DNA of 64,000 nucleotides, from assembly GCF_030297155.1 (NCBI RefSeq), contig NZ_AP028067.1:1426001-1490000 (forward strand). Reading direction: 5' to 3'. A model generated the notes under the pieces. It worked only from the letters and a program-made list of their open reading frames with translations, ran no database searches and had not been told where the DNA came from. Shown piece after piece: positions 6,914-60,015 of the stretch. The first letter of the stretch is position 1; every line of letters starts with the position of its first letter. Origin of the DNA: Vibrio sp. FE10 (GTDB taxonomy: Bacteria > Pseudomonadota > Gammaproteobacteria > Enterobacterales > Vibrionaceae). The translations under genes and the position numbers were made by a program.

Positions 6914-6944
6914 AAAAAAAAGCCCAAACCAACACGGTTTGGGC
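6914..6944 (-). terminator. strong minus-strand terminator without an annotated upstream gene
   Basis: On the minus strand a perfect 9-bp stem (GCCCAAACC / GGTTTGGGC, 5-base loop) is followed by eight T residues. The adhesin terminator lies before it on the plus strand, and no long minus-strand ORF reaches it. It therefore ends a short transcript arising between here and psrA. Confidence 0.85.
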
Positions 6945-7026
6945 GGATACAAGTATAGGAGTTAATAAGGAAAATGCAGTAATTAAGAAAGCAGGGGAGA
7001 GACAAGTTTGACGGCCTGTTAAACTT

Positions 7027-7092
7027 CTAAATACTCTGTTTTCTACTTAATTTATGACCCTCCATTTCTATTTCAGTTCCCAGAAAATTCAT
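7027..7092 (-). CDS. candidate 21-residue small protein
   Basis: The ORF encodes 21 residues (MNFLGTEIEMEGHKLSRKQS followed by I) on the minus strand. AAGGA lies seven bases before the ATG at 7092. It ends with TAG about 80 bases before the strong minus-strand terminator. The peptide is charged, with no signal or membrane segment. Support is only the initiation site plus the terminator; it could be the coding part of a dual-function RNA or chance. Confidence 0.35.
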   Translation of the reverse strand: MNFLGTEIEMEGHKLSRKQSI

Positions 7093-53514: not shown

Positions 53515-53649
53515 AAAATACCGTTTTATTTTAGCTGTCGTTTTACAGATAGAGCTATTTCCCGTGATAGCTCTTTTCAATCGTAGAGAACAGTGAATGT
53601 ACGACAAACGCGAAGACGACGCCTCATTTCAAGGTTTTACTGATCATTC

Positions 53650-54534
53650 ATGGATATAAAACAACTTAAGTATTTAATCGCTTTAGATCAAACGAAACAC
53701 TTTGGTCAGGCTGCGACACTTTGCCATATTACTCAGCCTACGTTGTCGATGAGGATAAGGCGGTTAGAAGAAGAGTTAGACCTTGAATTGATTTCAAGAA
53801 GTCAACGTTTTGAAGGGTTTACCGAAGCGGGCGAACGTATATTGGCTTGGGCAAAGACGGTCTTAGCAGCTCATGACGGTTTACAAGCTGAAGCGGCTAA
53901 CTGCCGTGGTCAACTGGTTGGCTCGTTAAGAGTTGGCATGGTGCCTTTAGCCAGCCAAAATCCGATGCAGTTGATTAAGCCGTTAGCAGAAAAATTCCCT
54001 GAACTTCGTTTTCAAATTTTGTCGATGACATCTGAGCAGATCATAGACCAGCTCAATCGTAATCAACTTGATTTAGGTATGTGTTACACCGACCAGATCA
54101 ATACGGCTTATTTTGACGTCATAGAAATGAACTCGACGGATTTAGGCATTCTGTATGACAGCCGATTCTTTGATTTTGCTGAGTCGGAAGTCTTATGGGA
54201 ATCACTCAATAGCATTCCTTTGGGGCTTTTGTCTAAAGGCATGCATTATCGTCATTCGATTGATTTGAGCTTCGGTAGTAAAGGCTTAGTTCCGCAAACT
54301 TTGATTGAAAGTAACTCTACGTTTCACCTGATCCAAGCCGTCACCAGTGGCCTGTGCTGTGCTGTTATGCCGCTTAACTCTGGATTAGAAGAGCTTAACG
54401 AACAACTGCGTATCGTACCGATAGAAAAAGCCGTGGTGCATTCGCCTCTCGGTCTACTTAAGCGTAAACAAGAACCTTATTCGGCACTCACTGATCAGTG
54501 TTTTTCTGAAGCAAAACTCTTGTTAAATCAGTGA
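53650..54534 (+). CDS. LysR-family regulator adjacent to ydeP and fdhD
   Basis: A 294-residue regulator with helix-turn-helix FGQAATLCHITQPTLSMRIRRLEEELDLELISRSQRFEGFTEAGERIL and an effector domain (about 90-290; GSLRVGMVPLASQNPMQLIKPLAEKFPELRF). It stands between the divergent ydeP-like gene and fdhD on the fdhD strand. The position suggests it controls these molybdoenzyme genes, which is inference. FNR-like boxes precede it. Confidence 0.9.
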   Translation: MDIKQLKYLIALDQTKHFGQAATLCHITQPTLSMRIRRLEEELDLELISRSQRFEGFTEAGERILAWAKTVLAAHDGLQAEAANCRGQLVGSLRVGMVPLASQNPMQLIKPLAEKFPELRFQILSMTSEQIIDQLNRNQLDLGMCYTDQINTAYFDVIEMNSTDLGILYDSRFFDFAESEVLWESLNSIPLGLLSKGMHYRHSIDLSFGSKGLVPQTLIESNSTFHLIQAVTSGLCCAVMPLNSGLEELNEQLRIVPIEKAVVHSPLGLLKRKQEPYSALTDQCFSEAKLLLNQ

Positions 54535-54590
54535 TGTTTGTTTAACCAGTGATATTTATTTAATCAGTGATATTTATTTAATCAGTAACG
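54523..54590 (+). repeat. 18-bp tandem repeats at the end of the LysR gene
   Basis: Units of 18 bases related to TTTAATCAGTGATATTTA start at 54523, 54541 and 54559, with a partial fourth at 54577. The first unit contains the final codons and stop of the LysR gene, so the array seems to have arisen by duplication of the gene end. Confidence 0.88.
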
Positions 54591-54641
54591 TTTTCAGTCT
54601 GAGTCGATATCGTCAAGCTGACCGTCTTTCTGGGTGATTTT

Positions 54642-55472
54642 ATGAGATGTATAACTCAATCCTATATTGAACTGCCTGATTTTAATCAAGCGCCTCCACA
54701 GCCCAATGCCATGAGCTATCGTGAGCTTACGGGCTATAGCATGGTGGTGGATGCACCTCTGGCAAACGAATCGGCATTGGCGATCAGTTATAACGGGATC
54801 AGTCAGGCGGTTATGATGGTGACGCCAGGCCACATGGAAGACTTTGTGCGCGGTTTTAGTTTAAGCACCGGTATCATAAAAAGATTCAGTGAAATTCGTG
54901 ATATTGAGATTGGTGGCAATGGTGAATCTCATTTCGCGCAAGTAGAAATCAGCAATCGCGCTTTTTGGGAAATGAAAACTCAGCGACGGAACTTGGCTGG
55001 AGCCACAGGCTGTGGCTTGTGTGGTGTTGAGGCGCTTGAACAAGCACTTCCGGATTTGGTTCCATTGCCATCGTCATTACCGCCCAGTCCACTGGTTTTT
55101 GAGGGGTTGAGAGGGCGAATTGCCGAACATCAAAAAGCAGCCAAAATATCCGGTGCTTTACATGCCGCTTTGTTTGCGAACTCGAAAGGTGAAATTTCAC
55201 TTTGTCGTGAAGACATCGGCCGCCATAACGCACTGGATAAACTAATAGGGGCGATGGCCGTGAACGAAATCAACCCTAAATCGGGGTTCGCCATTATGAC
55301 GAGTCGTTGCAGTTTAGAGCTTATTCATAAAGCCGTGCGTGCCGAAATCGCAACCTTGGTTTGTTTGTCGGCTCCGACCTCATTGACGGTCGAATGGGCA
55401 AGACGTAATCGCTTGAATCTAATTCACTTACCCAACAGCAGTCCACCTCGTTTATATAGCCCAGCGCCTTAA
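54642..55472 (+). CDS. fdhD: FdhD, sulfurtransferase for formate dehydrogenase-type molybdoenzymes
   Basis: A 276-residue protein with GGTGA before the ATG at 54642. The catalytic CxxC is in TGCGLCGVEALEQAL; other family features are VVDAPLANESALAISYNGIS, TPGHMEDFVRGFSLSTGII and CREDIGRHNALDKLIGA. FdhD passes sulfur from IscS to the molybdenum cofactor of formate dehydrogenases, and may serve the YdeP-like enzyme here. It follows the LysR gene by 107 bases across the 18-bp repeats and is likely co-transcribed. Confidence 0.94.
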   Translation: MRCITQSYIELPDFNQAPPQPNAMSYRELTGYSMVVDAPLANESALAISYNGISQAVMMVTPGHMEDFVRGFSLSTGIIKRFSEIRDIEIGGNGESHFAQVEISNRAFWEMKTQRRNLAGATGCGLCGVEALEQALPDLVPLPSSLPPSPLVFEGLRGRIAEHQKAAKISGALHAALFANSKGEISLCREDIGRHNALDKLIGAMAVNEINPKSGFAIMTSRCSLELIHKAVRAEIATLVCLSAPTSLTVEWARRNRLNLIHLPNSSPPRLYSPAP

Positions 55473-55495
55473 ATGTAATGTTTTCGTTTGGATAA

Positions 55496-55528
55496 AAAGA
55501 GAGACCATTGGGTCTCTCTTTGGTTTTT
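55496..55528 (+). terminator. terminator of fdhD
   Basis: AAAGAGAGACC / GGTCTCTCTTT hairpin followed by a T-rich stretch, 25 bases after the stop codon. Confidence 0.85.
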
Positions 55529-55714
55529 ATTAATAATGATTATTGTTTTACGCGGTTTGGTGGTTAATTTCTGCTCAAACGGCTGTTTTGTTCAATTTAA
55601 TAGCAGAAATTGTGGTTATAGCGTTGTGTTTCGAGGCTCATTCGATAAGATAAAACGACCTCTAATGCTAGGGGTAGGGCAGCAACGGATACGCTGCTTT
55701 AAATACTATGGAAT
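55529..55714. promoter_or_regulatory. likely promoter region of the tyrP leader
   Basis: Bases between the fdhD terminator and the leader ORF. No TyrR box (TGTAAA-N6-TTTACA) is recognisable here. Open frames in this stretch lack initiation signals. Confidence 0.35.
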
Positions 55715-55738
55715 GTGACTCAATTATTGGACACATAC

Positions 55739-55936
55739 ATGAAATTCAAGATTACATCGCCGATTATTGAACCTACGGAAGGTTCACCACATCAGTTAAC
55801 GCTTACTCACGCTTCTCGTTTTACCTCTTTTAAGACAAGCTCCCCTTTGAACGCCCTGTTCGACAACGTCTCTGCACGCTTCTTTACTGCTTATCGCTCC
55901 TATTGTTATTCGTTTTATAACTTTATTTCTATCTGA
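55739..55936 (+). CDS. candidate regulatory leader ORF with Tyr/Phe-rich end, upstream of tyrP
   Basis: A 65-codon ORF (MKFKITSPIIEPTEGSPHQL at its start), with a possible longer form from a GTG at 55715. Its last 20 residues contain four Tyr and five Phe (ARFFTAYRSYCYSFYNFISI). It ends 69 bases before the ATG of an aromatic amino-acid permease. The segment after its stop is C-rich and G-poor, as expected for a Rho-loading site, and holds no intrinsic terminator. The ribosome-binding site is weak. It could sense tyrosine/phenylalanine supply by ribosome pausing, or be a small protein. Confidence 0.45.
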   Translation: MKFKITSPIIEPTEGSPHQLTLTHASRFTSFKTSSPLNALFDNVSARFFTAYRSYCYSFYNFISI

Positions 55937-56005
55937 ACTCCTTTGTCATCCACTTGATGTACGAAGACTCACACCTATAAAAACTAAACAAATAAGTTAA
56001 AAATA

Positions 56006-57160
56006 ATGAATATTAAAATGATGGGTAGCTCCCTAATTATCGCTGGTACCGCTCTCGGTGCTGGTATGCTTGCGATCCCAATGGTATTAGCTCAATTTGG
56101 GTTGCTTTACGGCACACTGCTGATGGTTCTGATCTGTTTCGGTACCACTTACGCAGCACTATTACTTTTAGAAGCGACCATCAAAGCCGGTGGCGGTCTA
56201 GGGTTGAACTCTATTGCTCGAAAAACTCTGGGCAAACAAGGGCAGTTGATTACCAACGGCCTACTTTACGCGTTATTGATTTGCCTATTAATGGCTTACA
56301 TTTTGGGTGCGGGTGATTTGCTGAGCAAGTTACTGTCTAACTTTGGCGTTGAGATCACCGCGACCACCAGCCAAATCGTGTTTACCTTGCTTGCAGGTGC
56401 CGTTGTCGCGAGTGGTACAGGTGTAATTGATAAGCTGAACCGTGCATTGTTCTTTGTGATGCTTGCCAGCCTGTTTGTCACCATGGCCTTCTTAGCGCCA
56501 AACATGACTCAAGATAACCTGTTGCAGGTGACCAGTCATGATCACGTTGATCTAATCAAAACCAGTGCAATCCTGTTTACTAGCTTTGGCTTTATGGTTG
56601 TGATTCCAACCTTGGTTTCTTACAACCACGAAGCGACAGACAAACAGTTGCGTAATATGGTGATTGTTGGTTCTCTGATCCCGCTAGTGTGTTACCTGTG
56701 TTGGTTGTTTGCGGTAGTCGGTAACTTGAGTGAAGAGCAATTCAGAAGCTTCAAAAATGTCTCTGATTTGATGGCGGCGTTTGAGGCACAGTCTCCTTGG
56801 GTGGGTAATGTTCTTTCTACCTTCACTGGTTTGGCACTGTTAACTTCTTTCTTTGGTGTAGCGATGTCGCTGTTCAACCAGAATAGAGATATGTTCAACC
56901 AAAACACAGCGGTGACTTACTGCATTAGTTTCATCCTGCCACTCGCGGGTTCACTGCTTGCTGCAGATAAGTTCCTACAAGTGTTGAACTATGCAGGCAT
57001 CATCTTAGTGTTCTTGGCTGTTTTTGTTCCTTTGATCATGGTTCACAAGCAACGCTTTATGAAAGTCGCGGAAGACAGATACAGCGCTGAAGGTGGCAAG
57101 CCAATGATGCTTTTCTCATTGCTATTTGGTTGCTTCTTGCTTATCTCACAAGTGATTTAA
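56006..57160 (+). CDS. tyrP: aromatic amino-acid permease, TyrP/Mtr type
   Basis: A 384-residue membrane protein with about eleven hydrophobic segments. It belongs to the hydroxy/aromatic amino-acid permease (HAAAP) family: SSLIIAGTALGAGMLAIPMVLAQFG near the start, FTSFGFMVVIPTLVSYNHEATDKQLRNMVIVGSLIPLVCY in the middle. It imports tyrosine (TyrP) or tryptophan (Mtr); TyrP is my preferred name, from overall resemblance. It has no clear Shine-Dalgarno sequence and follows the Tyr/Phe-rich leader ORF. Confidence 0.82.
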   Translation: MNIKMMGSSLIIAGTALGAGMLAIPMVLAQFGLLYGTLLMVLICFGTTYAALLLLEATIKAGGGLGLNSIARKTLGKQGQLITNGLLYALLICLLMAYILGAGDLLSKLLSNFGVEITATTSQIVFTLLAGAVVASGTGVIDKLNRALFFVMLASLFVTMAFLAPNMTQDNLLQVTSHDHVDLIKTSAILFTSFGFMVVIPTLVSYNHEATDKQLRNMVIVGSLIPLVCYLCWLFAVVGNLSEEQFRSFKNVSDLMAAFEAQSPWVGNVLSTFTGLALLTSFFGVAMSLFNQNRDMFNQNTAVTYCISFILPLAGSLLAADKFLQVLNYAGIILVFLAVFVPLIMVHKQRFMKVAEDRYSAEGGKPMMLFSLLFGCFLLISQVI

Positions 57161-57223
57161 CAAAACAATTTGGTGAGTTGAATAAATCAGTCACCAAATT
57201 TCAGCTACAAAAGCTTCAGATAC

Positions 57224-57254
57224 AAAAAAAGGAACGCATCGGCGTTCCTTTTTA
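57224..57254. terminator. bidirectional terminator between tyrP and sdaA
   Basis: AAAAAAAGGAACGC / GCGTTCCTTTTT hairpin between convergent genes. Confidence 0.9.
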
Positions 57255-57279
57255 TTATTTGTTTGTTAATTCAGATTGA

Positions 57280-58641
57280 TTAACATACAACCTTAACAGC
57301 CAAACCACCTTGAGAAGTCTCACGGTATTTAGCGTTCATGTCTTTACCTGTTTCTAGCATAGTTTCGATAACTTTATCTAGAGAAACAGTAGGAGCAGAA
57401 GAGCGACGAAGTGCCATACGCGTTGAGTTGATTGCTTTTACTGCAGCAATACCGTTACGCTCGATACATGGTACTTGTACTTGGCCAGCAACTGGGTCAC
57501 ACGTTAGACCTAGGTTGTGCTCCATGCCGATTTCTGCAGCCATACATACTTGCTCAGGGCTACCACCCATAAGCTCAGCAAGACCAGCAGCAGCCATAGA
57601 ACATGCCACACCAACTTCACCCTGACAGCCAACTTCAGCGCCAGAGATAGAAGCGTTACGCTTGTAAAGACCACCGATCGCGCCAGAAGCTGCGAAGTAA
57701 CGGATGTAGTCTTTCTCTGTTACCGTTTGAATGAACTTATCGTAGTAAGCCAGTACCGCAGGGATGATGCCACACGCGCCGTTTGTTGGTGCCGTTACTA
57801 CACGACCGCCCGCAGCATTTTCTTCGTTTACTGCAAAAGCAAACATGTTCACCCAGTCAACAACCGTCATTGGATCGTTGGTTGTTTTTTCTGACGTGAT
57901 CAGTTGTTGGCGAAGTGCTGCTGCACGGCGAGGTACACGCAGTGGACCAGGCAGGATACCTTCAGTATTCATACCGCGATCCATACACTCACGCATCGTT
58001 CTCCAGATGTTAGCGAAGTAAGTACGAGACTCTTCGTCTGAGTGGAACGCTGCTTGGTTTTTCATAACCAGTGTGCTGATAGAAAGACCACTTTCTTTAC
58101 ACTGATTAACCAGCTCTTCAGCTGTTGTGAATTCGTAAGGTGCTTTAATTGGGTTTTCTTCTTCTTTGCCGAAGTTCTCTTCGTCAACGATGAAACCACC
58201 ACCAATTGAGTAGTACGTTTTTGAGTAAGCGACTTCGTCATCAACCCAAGCATGAATGCTCATGCCATTTTCATGCAATGAAAGGTTCGAAGTATGGAAG
58301 TTCATTCCGCCATCTTTAGGGAACGAAACAGTATGACAGTGCATACCAACAGGTAGACGTTCAGTTTCTTCTACTCGAGCAATAAAGCCCGCGATAGAGT
58401 CGATATCTACTTTCTCAGGAGTATTGCCAGCAAGACCCATGATGATAGCGATATCTGTGTGGTGACCTTTCCCTGTCAGTGATAGTGATCCATATACGTC
58501 CACGGTGATTTTAGTGATGTCGCGCAATTTTCCCATTGAACGTAGGTCATCAATAAATTCTTTACCCGCTTTCATTGGTCCAACTGTGTGTGAGCTCGAT
58601 GGACCAACACCGATTTTATAGATATCAAATACACTAATCAT
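57280..58641 (-). CDS. sdaA: L-serine ammonia-lyase SdaA
   Basis: A 453-residue iron-sulfur serine dehydratase (E. coli SdaA 454), from the ATG at 58641 (MISVFDIYKIGVGPSSSHTVGPMKAG; GAGGT upstream). It has the N-terminal beta domain and the C-terminal alpha domain with cysteines for the [4Fe-4S] cluster (TNGACGIIPAVLAYY, GAEVGCQGEVGVACSMAAAGLAELMGG, NLGLTCDPVAGQVQVPC). It turns L-serine into pyruvate and ammonia. It lies downstream of sdaC on the same strand. Confidence 0.96.
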   Translation of the reverse strand: MISVFDIYKIGVGPSSSHTVGPMKAGKEFIDDLRSMGKLRDITKITVDVYGSLSLTGKGHHTDIAIIMGLAGNTPEKVDIDSIAGFIARVEETERLPVGMHCHTVSFPKDGGMNFHTSNLSLHENGMSIHAWVDDEVAYSKTYYSIGGGFIVDEENFGKEEENPIKAPYEFTTAEELVNQCKESGLSISTLVMKNQAAFHSDEESRTYFANIWRTMRECMDRGMNTEGILPGPLRVPRRAAALRQQLITSEKTTNDPMTVVDWVNMFAFAVNEENAAGGRVVTAPTNGACGIIPAVLAYYDKFIQTVTEKDYIRYFAASGAIGGLYKRNASISGAEVGCQGEVGVACSMAAAGLAELMGGSPEQVCMAAEIGMEHNLGLTCDPVAGQVQVPCIERNGIAAVKAINSTRMALRRSSAPTVSLDKVIETMLETGKDMNAKYRETSQGGLAVKVVC

Positions 58642-58655
58642 TGCGATTACCTCAA

Positions 58656-58687
58656 AAAGAGAGCCTCCCAAGGGGAGTAGGGAGGCT
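58656..58687 (-). terminator. hairpin between sdaC and sdaA (terminator or attenuator)
   Basis: On the minus strand GAGCCTCCC / GGGAGGCTC is followed by TTTTTG, and the sdaA Shine-Dalgarno lies a few bases later. It can end most sdaC transcripts and let some proceed into sdaA. Confidence 0.75.
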
Positions 58688-58761
58688 CATTTATTATCAT
58701 TATATTTTGTGTTTAATCTCGCGATATAAGATGGAAGTCATCTTATAAAAAGTGCTTTAGA

Positions 58762-60015
58762 TTAAAGAGCGCCGTAGATTACAGAACTAATAGCCGCTAG
58801 ACCACATAAAGCTGTAAAGATTTGCACAGGTGCTGATGTTTTGTACTTAGCCATTGCTGGTACTTTTTGCATCGCGAATACAGGCATTAGGAATAGGATA
58901 GCTGCAATCATTGGAGCACCCATTGTTTCAATCATACCTAGGATGCTTGGGTTAACTACCGCAACAATCCAAGTTGTAACAACGATGAACGCTAGAGATG
59001 CTTTCTCAATCGTGCTGATTGAAGAACCAGAGCGAGACTTGATTAGACCAACAAGACCTTCATGAGCACCTAGGAAGTGACCGAAGTAGCTAGAAGTGAT
59101 TGCTGCGAACGCTACTAGAGGACCCATGTAAGAGATAAGTGGAGACTCATGAACGTTAGCTAGGTAAGAAAGAACCGAGATGTTTTGAGATTGTGCTGTT
59201 GCTAGTTGCTCTGGAGATAGAGAAAGTACTACAGAGAATACGAAGAACATTACAAAACCCATCAGCATCATTGCTGCGCCACCAGTGATTGCGTCAGTTT
59301 TCTTAACTGCGTCTTCACCGTATACACGACGTTGCTCTTTAGAGAACTGTGAAATGATTGGGCTGTGGTTGAAAGAGAACACGATGATTGGAATCGCAAG
59401 CCAGATAATAGAAGGCATTGCTGACCATTCTGGGCTTGTTTCCATCATTGAAGTGTTCCAATCAGGAACTAGGTAGAAAGACAATGCTAGTAGGATGAAT
59501 ACTAGTGGGTAAACCATTGCTGAAGTTGCTTTAAGCATCAGCTCTTTACCGAATACAACACCTGCTGTCATAGCAAGGATAAGTGCACCAGAAAGAAGAG
59601 GACGAGGAATAGATTCCATGCCCATTTGGTTTACTAGGAAAGAATCAACCGTGTTGGTGATACCAACGCCGTAGATAAGAACGATTGGGTAGATAGCGAA
59701 AAAGTAAGCAAAAGTAATAAGGTTTGCGCCAGTCTTACCGAAGTGTTCTTCAACTGTATCTGTAATATCTGCTTCAGGGTTCTTAGAAGACAATACGAAA
59801 CGAGCTAGAGATTTGTGTGCGAACCAAGTCATTGGCGCCGCGATTAGAGCTAGGATAACTAATGGCCAAAAACCACCCGCACCAGCTTTGATTGGAAGAA
59901 ATAGTACGCCAGCACCAACTGCTGTACCGAATAGTGATAAACACCAGGTAAAATCTTTGTAGTTAAACTTGCTTGAATCTTTAACGGCATTTGCCGAAGA
60001 AGTTGTTGTGTTCAT
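58762..60015 (-). CDS. sdaC: serine transporter SdaC
   Basis: A 417-residue HAAAP-family permease with about eleven hydrophobic segments. Family features: FTWCLSLFGTAVGAGVLFLPIKAGAGGFWPL near the N-terminus, YFFAIYPIVLIYGVGITNTVDSFL and FSFNHSPIISQFSKEQRRVYGEDA. It imports L-serine for SdaA. The genes sdaC and sdaA are separated by 120 bases containing a hairpin. Confidence 0.93.
   Translation of the reverse strand: MNTTTSSANAVKDSSKFNYKDFTWCLSLFGTAVGAGVLFLPIKAGAGGFWPLVILALIAAPMTWFAHKSLARFVLSSKNPEADITDTVEEHFGKTGANLITFAYFFAIYPIVLIYGVGITNTVDSFLVNQMGMESIPRPLLSGALILAMTAGVVFGKELMLKATSAMVYPLVFILLALSFYLVPDWNTSMMETSPEWSAMPSIIWLAIPIIVFSFNHSPIISQFSKEQRRVYGEDAVKKTDAITGGAAMMLMGFVMFFVFSVVLSLSPEQLATAQSQNISVLSYLANVHESPLISYMGPLVAFAAITSSYFGHFLGAHEGLVGLIKSRSGSSISTIEKASLAFIVVTTWIVAVVNPSILGMIETMGAPMIAAILFLMPVFAMQKVPAMAKYKTSAPVQIFTALCGLAAISSVIYGAL

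Follow-up and report, generated by a model that had tools for sequence, protein, structure and literature searches.

A conserved leader open reading frame before tyrP in Vibrio, and its predicted pairing with the tyrP start

What controls tyrP, the gene of an aromatic amino-acid permease, in Vibrio sp. FE10, and does the short open reading frame (ORF) that ends just before it take part? The locus lies in a stretch of 64,000 nucleotides of contig NZ_AP028067.1, hereafter the window, and a previous reading of its letters alone (the sequence-only reading) had proposed that translation of this ORF, with its Tyr and Phe codons near the end, controls the permease through Rho. Comparison with relatives upholds a regulatory leader tied to tyrP, conserved and, to judge from its sequences, evidently translated. 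What the compared sequences contain is the conservation of the ORF, a peptide-level constraint on an eight-residue motif, EPTEGSPH, a covarying hairpin with a GGA in its loop, and a recurrent complementarity between the end of the leader and the start of tyrP; to these we add computed opening energies of the tyrP start and their computed relief by a modelled ribosome. The best explanation, in which we have moderate confidence, is a CsrA-gated translational attenuation of tyrP by the Tyr/Phe codons of the leader; the role of CsrA, the sensing of tRNA-Tyr and tRNA-Phe, the direction of control and any part played by Rho are what we infer from these data.

A leader that accompanies tyrP

The leader and its gene have the following parts in the window:

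55739..55936, plus strand: leader ORF, 65 codons from ATG to TGA
55769..55792, plus strand: invariant motif EPTEGSPH, codons 11-18
55793..55897, plus strand: codons 19-53, the variable middle part of the ORF, rich in C and poor in G
55880..55924, plus strand: Tyr/Phe cluster, codons 48-62, with 4 Tyr and 4 Phe
56006..57160, plus strand: tyrP, aromatic amino-acid permease (PF03222, Pfam 262.4 bits)

The TGA of the ORF at 55934-55936 and the ATG of tyrP at 56006 confirm the claimed distance of 69 bases. The likely leader start is ATG 55739, which gives the 65-codon version; it is favoured because the GGA 10 bases 5' of it is kept and in-frame stops lie further upstream, within 8 codons 5' of this ATG in 8 of 39 close-relative loci. 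Among the 20 C-terminal residues four are Tyr, as had been read, but Phe also numbers four and not five. Even so, the leader frame is the only one of 356 frames in the window (stop to stop, at least 50 codons) with at least eight Tyr plus Phe in its last 20 residues. Conservation is stronger proof of a real leader than this count within the window.

Our first retrieval was keyed on tyrP, not on the leader, and returned 23 loci of named Vibrio, all of them close relatives; each of the 23 carries the leader. A profile search of the genus then placed it in 86 of 227 genomes (E ≤3.6e-13, with the next match at E 0.011), and a tyrP orthologue scoring at least 530 bits is present in exactly the same 86, and no leader match came from the 24 genus genomes in which the best tyrP has 57-62% identity. 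Of 329 genomes searched in the family, 14 that belong to a second genus and one from a third also have the leader, and the gene 3' of it belongs to PF03222 in both of these genera (one locus checked in each); a sample of 394 genomes of the order yielded no real match in any other family. Conservation of the ORF thus extends to every one of the 86 genus genomes that have this tyrP, and to 15 further genomes, from two other genera. Two further matches were rejected: G071, a weak match in another family (E 1.3e-4), proved on reading to be a chance match with stops, and G165 (E 0.0033) was counted as spurious on its three stops, its sequence not being read.

The 145 loci fetched reduce to 99 distinct sequences, which encode 84 different peptides 39-65 residues long, and the distinct loci span 97 of the 101 genomes with true matches (G213, G250, G254 and G256 were left out). 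From these, 37 representatives were picked by similarity past H18, the last codon of EPTEGSPH. The motif is identical in all 99 distinct loci; locus extraction required it, and the invariance is no artefact of this filter because the only loci excluded were 9 noise matches and 20 loci fetched for other permeases. In the representatives, the EPTEGSPH codons have a synonymous divergence (pS) of 0.71, with synonymous sites saturated, and a nonsynonymous divergence (pN) of 0.00; together with the five preceding codons the values are 0.70 and 0.08, and for the last 8 codons of the leader they are 0.68 and 0.47. Conservation drops off abruptly past H18. High pS with a pN near zero indicates that the N-terminus is constrained as a peptide, and that the tail is not constrained residue by residue. 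An opposite-strand gene as the source of the N-terminal conservation was ruled out, there being no minus-strand ORF of at least 30 amino acids over 55739-55936.

It had been anticipated that the C-terminal aromatic cluster would be the conserved part. The cluster is indeed kept across lineages, but this expectation is borne out only partly: the best-conserved part is the N-terminal motif and not the tail. Among the representatives, Tyr makes up 18.2% of the last 12 residues against 2.4% in the middle, Phe 23.6% against 11.3%, and Trp is absent from the last 12. The stop codon is TGA in 71 of the 99 distinct loci, the gap from leader stop to tyrP ranges from 57 to 130 bases, and the stretch that follows EPTEGSPH is 21-47 residues long. 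With a stretch of such varying length behind it, EPTEGSPH would have no fixed position in the tunnel by the time the ribosome translates the tail. Its action must therefore come early, through a pause or destabilisation near codon 18, or else follow its exit from the ribosome. We take it to be a second gate, early in elongation. Against Rfam, the window leader gave no match at gathering score, and five leader loci gave sub-threshold matches only; nine loci upstream of other tyrP-like permeases gave no match up to E 1. Searches of the open-licence PMC literature listed no report of the leader, which may still be described elsewhere in print.

The NCBIfam equivalog model for TyrP ranks first for the permease, with 215 bits under a cut-off of 482, and because of this shortfall we say only that its substrate is presumably Tyr, possibly Phe.

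At the loci of the 57-62% identical tyrP, a different element stands in the leader's stead. An identical 15-mer, TTGCTTCGAACCCAA, lies about 200-300 bases 5' of the gene in all 15 loci fetched (L140-L154), drawn from the 24 genomes of this kind. The short arms on its two sides are complementary, and the eight of these loci scanned gave no match in Rfam.

The end of the leader and the start of tyrP

Two segments of the window are predicted to pair with each other:

55896..55922, plus strand: anti-start strand, leader codons predicted to base-pair with the ribosome-binding site of tyrP and its first codons
55995..56029, plus strand: tyrP start region that would be paired by the leader end

Folding of the alignment of the window's clade yields 24 long-range pairs between leader end and tyrP start, the window fold of 55880-56035 has a z of -3.25, and the joint folds listed contain long-range helices whose leader strands are unlike between clades. 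Pairing exceeds that of dinucleotide shuffles at p<0.05 in 20 of the 37 representatives (p<0.01 in 4; Fisher 9e-18), and that of synonymous-codon shuffles of the last 18 codons in 15 of 37 (p<0.01 in 2; Fisher 1.4e-13); both combined values ignore the shared ancestry of the representatives and are hence optimistic, which is to be held against the interpretation weighed below. The mean pairing energy is -14.5 kcal/mol for native partners and -11.0 kcal/mol for partners swapped between clades; 36 of 37 representatives pair more strongly in the native combination than on average when swapped (Wilcoxon 1.5e-11). The 57 nucleotides past H18, taken as a control that overlaps the tail in the shortest leaders, give a mean of -8.4 kcal/mol. 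Base changes within clades are of all kinds: 6 compensatory, 8 one-sided and 6 broken in 238 cells in the SFSRFYFSY clade; 1, 13 and 8 in 221 cells in the second genus; and 0 compensatory and 3 one-sided in 274 cells in the sister of the window's clade. Covariation within clades is limited, and the recurrence of the pairing between lineages of unlike sequence is the stronger argument for it.

How much it costs to open the tyrP start (-14 to +6) was computed by equilibrium folding, which takes no account of the order of transcription. With the leader left off, the mean cost over the 37 representatives is 2.65 kcal/mol; its last 19 codons, the stop among them, bring this to 8.49, and the entire leader brings it to 8.19. 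In 36 of 37 the increase due to the last codons exceeds 0.5 kcal/mol, and in the window the cost goes from 1.1 to 5.9 kcal/mol when the last 19 codons are present. A ribosome was then modelled as a block, from 15 nucleotides before to 12 after the first P-site base, and placed at H18 and at each of the last 20 codons. From 8.19 kcal/mol with no ribosome, the mean cost changes to 8.14 at H18, 5.08 at the last sense codon and 3.29 at the best position, relief being greatest with the P site 1-6 codons ahead of the last codon. On the window leader the best position is Tyr57 (2.0 kcal/mol), a ribosome at the last codon leaving 5.0 against 5.8 when free, and in nine SFSRFYFSY-type representatives the relief is -0.9 to 2.7 kcal/mol at the last codon and 4.1 to 7.6 at the best. 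In these computations, then, the start is sequestered by leader RNA and would be freed by a ribosome at a defined position on the leader.

Aromatic codons are concentrated in the zones of relief. Over 31 usable representatives they hold 262 codons, of which 116 are Tyr/Phe (59.7 expected, p=0.0002) and 63 are Tyr (20.6 expected, p=0.0002), in a permutation that draws on all residues past H18 and tests concentration at the end rather than in the exact zone. The aromatic residues are not merely a by-product of pairing, because they are enriched also in the tail codons outside the duplex (n=171), where Tyr makes up 11.7% and Phe 29.8% against the 2.4% and 11.3% of the middle.

The absence of an intrinsic terminator between leader and tyrP, as first read, is upheld by a consensus scan of the window, in which the sole terminator-like site within 55440-56060 is 55496-55521. 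So is that of a TyrR box, no site from 53547 to 58744 matching the consensus with 3 mismatches or fewer. The proposed Rho site did not fare as well. In the tna layout it lies past the leader stop, whereas here the part rich in C and poor in G is the ORF, so that the sequence does not show a Rho site past the stop. The 69-base interval past the stop is G-poor (G 0.09), as stated, but it is A-rich (A 0.43) and not C-rich (C 0.22). The middle of the ORF averages C 0.31 and G 0.13 in the representatives (0.33 and 0.14 in the window leader), with a C/G ratio of 0.88 in tyrP. The best 78-nucleotide stretch of the leader, at 55784, reaches a C/G ratio of 2.8, and the places sampled from codon 11 on rank in the top 1-4% of the window's 78-nucleotide stretches, no higher. 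Direct pairing of the leader end with the tyrP start would couple the two without need for Rho; an untranslated leader might load Rho, adding to the pairing rather than replacing it.

Around the leader stop, other conserved sequences were seen. A stretch like TTGTTAGCCATCGCGCTAGGCACGCGCAC lies directly 3' of the stop in L017, L018, L023, L084, L119 and their relatives, outside the window's clade, and alternative folds are possible there. In L097-L107 and relatives, a hairpin CGTATTGA/TCAATACG that encloses the stop codon is among the folds listed.

The hairpin upstream of the leader and the surroundings of tyrP

Upstream of the leader start, three GGA sequences are candidate CsrA sites:

55675..55701, plus strand: hairpin with GGA in its loop, candidate site 1 (stem 55679-55683/55693-55697, loop AACGGATAC at 55684-55692)
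55710..55712, plus strand: second GGA, candidate site 2, at -22 to -36 in 98 of the 99 distinct loci
55729..55731, plus strand: third GGA, Shine-Dalgarno-like for the leader, candidate site 3, at -8 to -12 in 98 of 99

They stand near -50, -28 and -10 of the leader start, and all three are present in 92 of the 99 distinct loci. The window hairpin is more stable than dinucleotide shuffles (p=0.005); by scan, 32 of the 37 representatives have a hairpin with GGA at -46 to -54, and 30 of 37 reach p<0.05. No such hairpin was found by scan in L173, the locus of the third genus. In the alignment of the 37, 88.7% of 222 cells are paired and 54 have both partners changed, where shuffles give 14.8 (0 of 500 reach 54). 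The score for covariation, 0.685 as opposed to 0.319 in shuffles, was likewise reached by 0 of 500, for a helix chosen from the same sequences on which covariation was tested; RNAalifold, unprompted, found five of the six pairs. A DNA operator at 55675-55701 was ruled out, as the arms covary while the loop is constant, the reverse of what an operator would display. A conserved RNA hairpin implies that the transcript begins upstream of it, which speaks against a transcript start after 55936.

The GGA layout is most likely read by CsrA, of which the genome has one gene copy. Excerpts of a review (PMC7652899) describe CsrA targets with the layout seen here, a GGA in a hairpin loop and further GGAs. 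CsrA affects amino-acid transport and metabolism in Vibrio according to excerpts of PMC12298160, in which the leader site is not named.

Two short inverted sequences were seen by eye across the ribosome-binding site of the leader: TGTG...CACA at 55713-55736 in the window's clade and in the second genus, and TGTC...GACA at the equivalent place in many other loci, where a small stem might be possible.

Elsewhere in the genome, a tyrP paralogue, 50% identical, lies on the second contig (G000:C2:383860-385014), and no such leader was seen upstream of it. Beyond tyrP, at 58762-60015 and 57280-58671 (both minus strand), a more distant PF03222-type permease adjoins a serine dehydratase gene. VrrA, the Vibrio regulatory RNA of OmpA (Rfam RF01456, 112 bits), lies at 6914-7044 of the window on the minus strand.

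A proposed attenuation of tyrP and its alternatives

In the attenuation that we favour, the last codons of the leader would by default pair with the ribosome-binding site and start codon of tyrP and keep the gene shut. When charged tRNA-Tyr or tRNA-Phe is short, the ribosome would slow on the Tyr/Phe codons near the leader end and cover the anti-start strand, so that the tyrP start would be freed and the importer made. Entry of ribosomes to the leader would be gated by the GGA-loop hairpin and the two further GGAs, with CsrA as their most likely reader; were leader translation blocked, tyrP would stay shut and the C-rich leader might be exposed to Rho.

A number of observations weigh against this explanation. 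Pausing on Tyr/Phe codons leaves the invariant N-terminal motif unexplained, and some of these codons would be expected anyway from complementarity to a start site rich in A. In 21 of the 31 usable representatives the start is relieved equally by a ribosome placed at the stop, and in six of the 37 the relief by a ribosome is below 1.5 kcal/mol, these six having been dropped from the counts of relief zones. L018 and L096 have no excess pairing over synonymous shuffles (p=0.56 and p=0.86), and the window's own clade of 27 members, which stands as one of the 37 representatives, has 0 compensatory, 3 one-sided and 0 broken changes in 504 cells of its helix. For the KARYSYCF clade, the largest among the representatives, alignment folding gave no long-range pairs; in a register set by hand, from which 5 of its 20 sequences were excluded for want of the anchor motif, one pair is T-A, T-G and C-G in 6, 3 and 6 of 15, and the other pairs fail in 0-5 of 15. 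As to the hairpin, 5 of the 37 representatives lack it at -46 to -54 by scan, and the double change of all six of its pairs is reached by 61 of 500 shuffles.

An alternative close to the sequence-only reading is a mechanism of the TnaC/SpeFL type, in which free Tyr/Phe would arrest the ribosome at the leader stop, Rho would be kept off or the start freed, and the substrate would induce tyrP. A peptide end rich in Arg, Tyr and Phe, the prevalence of TGA stops, the lack of a terminator and the relief at the stop in 21 representatives, where such an arrest is conceivable, would all suit it. We nevertheless consider it quite unlikely, since the last residues are not conserved individually (pN 0.47), the stretch with C above G precedes the stop, and relief at the stop is small in the window (5.0 against 5.8 kcal/mol free) and in the nine SFSRFYFSY-type representatives. 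The motif, for its part, could be the main sensor: a pause or drop-off near codon 18 would decide between unfolding of the tail and a C-rich leader left to Rho, and the Tyr/Phe codons would be secondary or a by-product of pairing. The invariance of EPTEGSPH in 99 of 99 loci despite varying codons, the sharp end of conservation at H18, the excess of C over G in the leader, and the presence among its first 30 residues of acidic residues and prolines, like those of leader peptides that are sensitive to destabilisation (excerpts of PMC11282234), speak for such a role. It is, however, rather unlikely as the main one: a ribosome at H18 leaves the computed opening of the tyrP start unchanged (8.14 against 8.19 kcal/mol), the likeness to MgtL was seen by eye and such motifs need not be invariant at each residue, and the enrichment of Tyr in the tail would go unexplained.

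That the ORF encodes a free-standing small protein working with TyrP, its pairing being incidental, would agree with the strong peptide-level constraint at the N-terminus and with the naming of 8 of its 14 database relatives as hypothetical proteins. We think this very improbable, given that the remaining peptide drifts in sequence and in length (39-65 residues), that it has no match in Pfam or NCBIfam, and that pairing to tyrP constrains its last codons, as would suit an element acting in cis.

The favoured attenuation has partial counterparts among known systems. In rtpLP, before the anti-TRAP gene of B. subtilis, Trp codons in a leader ORF slow the ribosome, which opens the next start; the two share leader codons for the relevant amino acid and would share a slowed ribosome that opens the next gene, and they differ in that rtpLP senses Trp rather than Tyr/Phe, belongs to another phylum and is short. 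Neither an invariant N-terminal motif nor a GGA hairpin is known in rtpLP. The classical transcription attenuators trpL, pheL and hisL likewise carry clusters of codons for the relevant amino acids, whereas no terminator was found between our leader and tyrP. The leader peptide TnaC of E. coli (abstract of PMC8429421) is also encoded before an aromatic amino-acid gene. The tna leader has no terminator either, and it differs from ours in the place of its Rho site, past the stop. In attenuators of the ermC type, as described in passages of PMC10219788, a ribosome held on ermCL exposes a sequestered start, as it would here; the signal there, however, is an antibiotic, whereas in the tyrP leader the last codons of the ORF would themselves serve as the anti-start strand.

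For the gate, the comparison is with iraD of E. coli, whose translation is coupled to the short upstream ORF idlP (ORF27), repressed by CsrA (Park 2017, as cited in the excerpted review, PMC7652899). Candidate CsrA sites 5' of a short ORF that would control translation of the next gene are common to both, with a GGA in a hairpin loop and another at the ribosome-binding site of the ORF. Judging from the same excerpts, idlP slightly overlaps iraD, whereas the tyrP leader neither overlaps nor abuts its gene and would be coupled across its gap of 57-130 bases by a long-range helix; the invariant peptide motif and the Tyr/Phe tail also set it apart, and its CsrA sites are predicted ones. For EPTEGSPH, the nearest analogue is the acidic/proline motif EPDP at residues 2-5 of mgtL of E. 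coli (excerpts of PMC11282234), a resemblance by eye only: in both, such a motif lies near the start of a leader peptide with a transporter gene downstream, but EPTEGSPH occupies residues 11-18 and the transport concerns amino acids rather than ions.

A more far-reaching proposal, possible though doubtful, is that EPTEGSPH marks a new class of two-stage leaders. An N-terminal nascent-chain element, by arrest or destabilisation near codon 18, would decide whether ribosomes reach a codon-sensing module whose mRNA locks the next gene. With a CsrA gate ahead of both, three inputs at the post-transcriptional level would converge within about 350 bases.

If the attenuation that we favour is true, an aromatic amino-acid importer would be controlled through translation of its leader and not through TyrR, and the same codons would both report the supply of Tyr and Phe and form the lock on tyrP. 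The eight residues of EPTEGSPH, unchanged in three genera within a leader that otherwise drifts, would then offer a direct and testable handle on the early action of nascent peptides in elongation.
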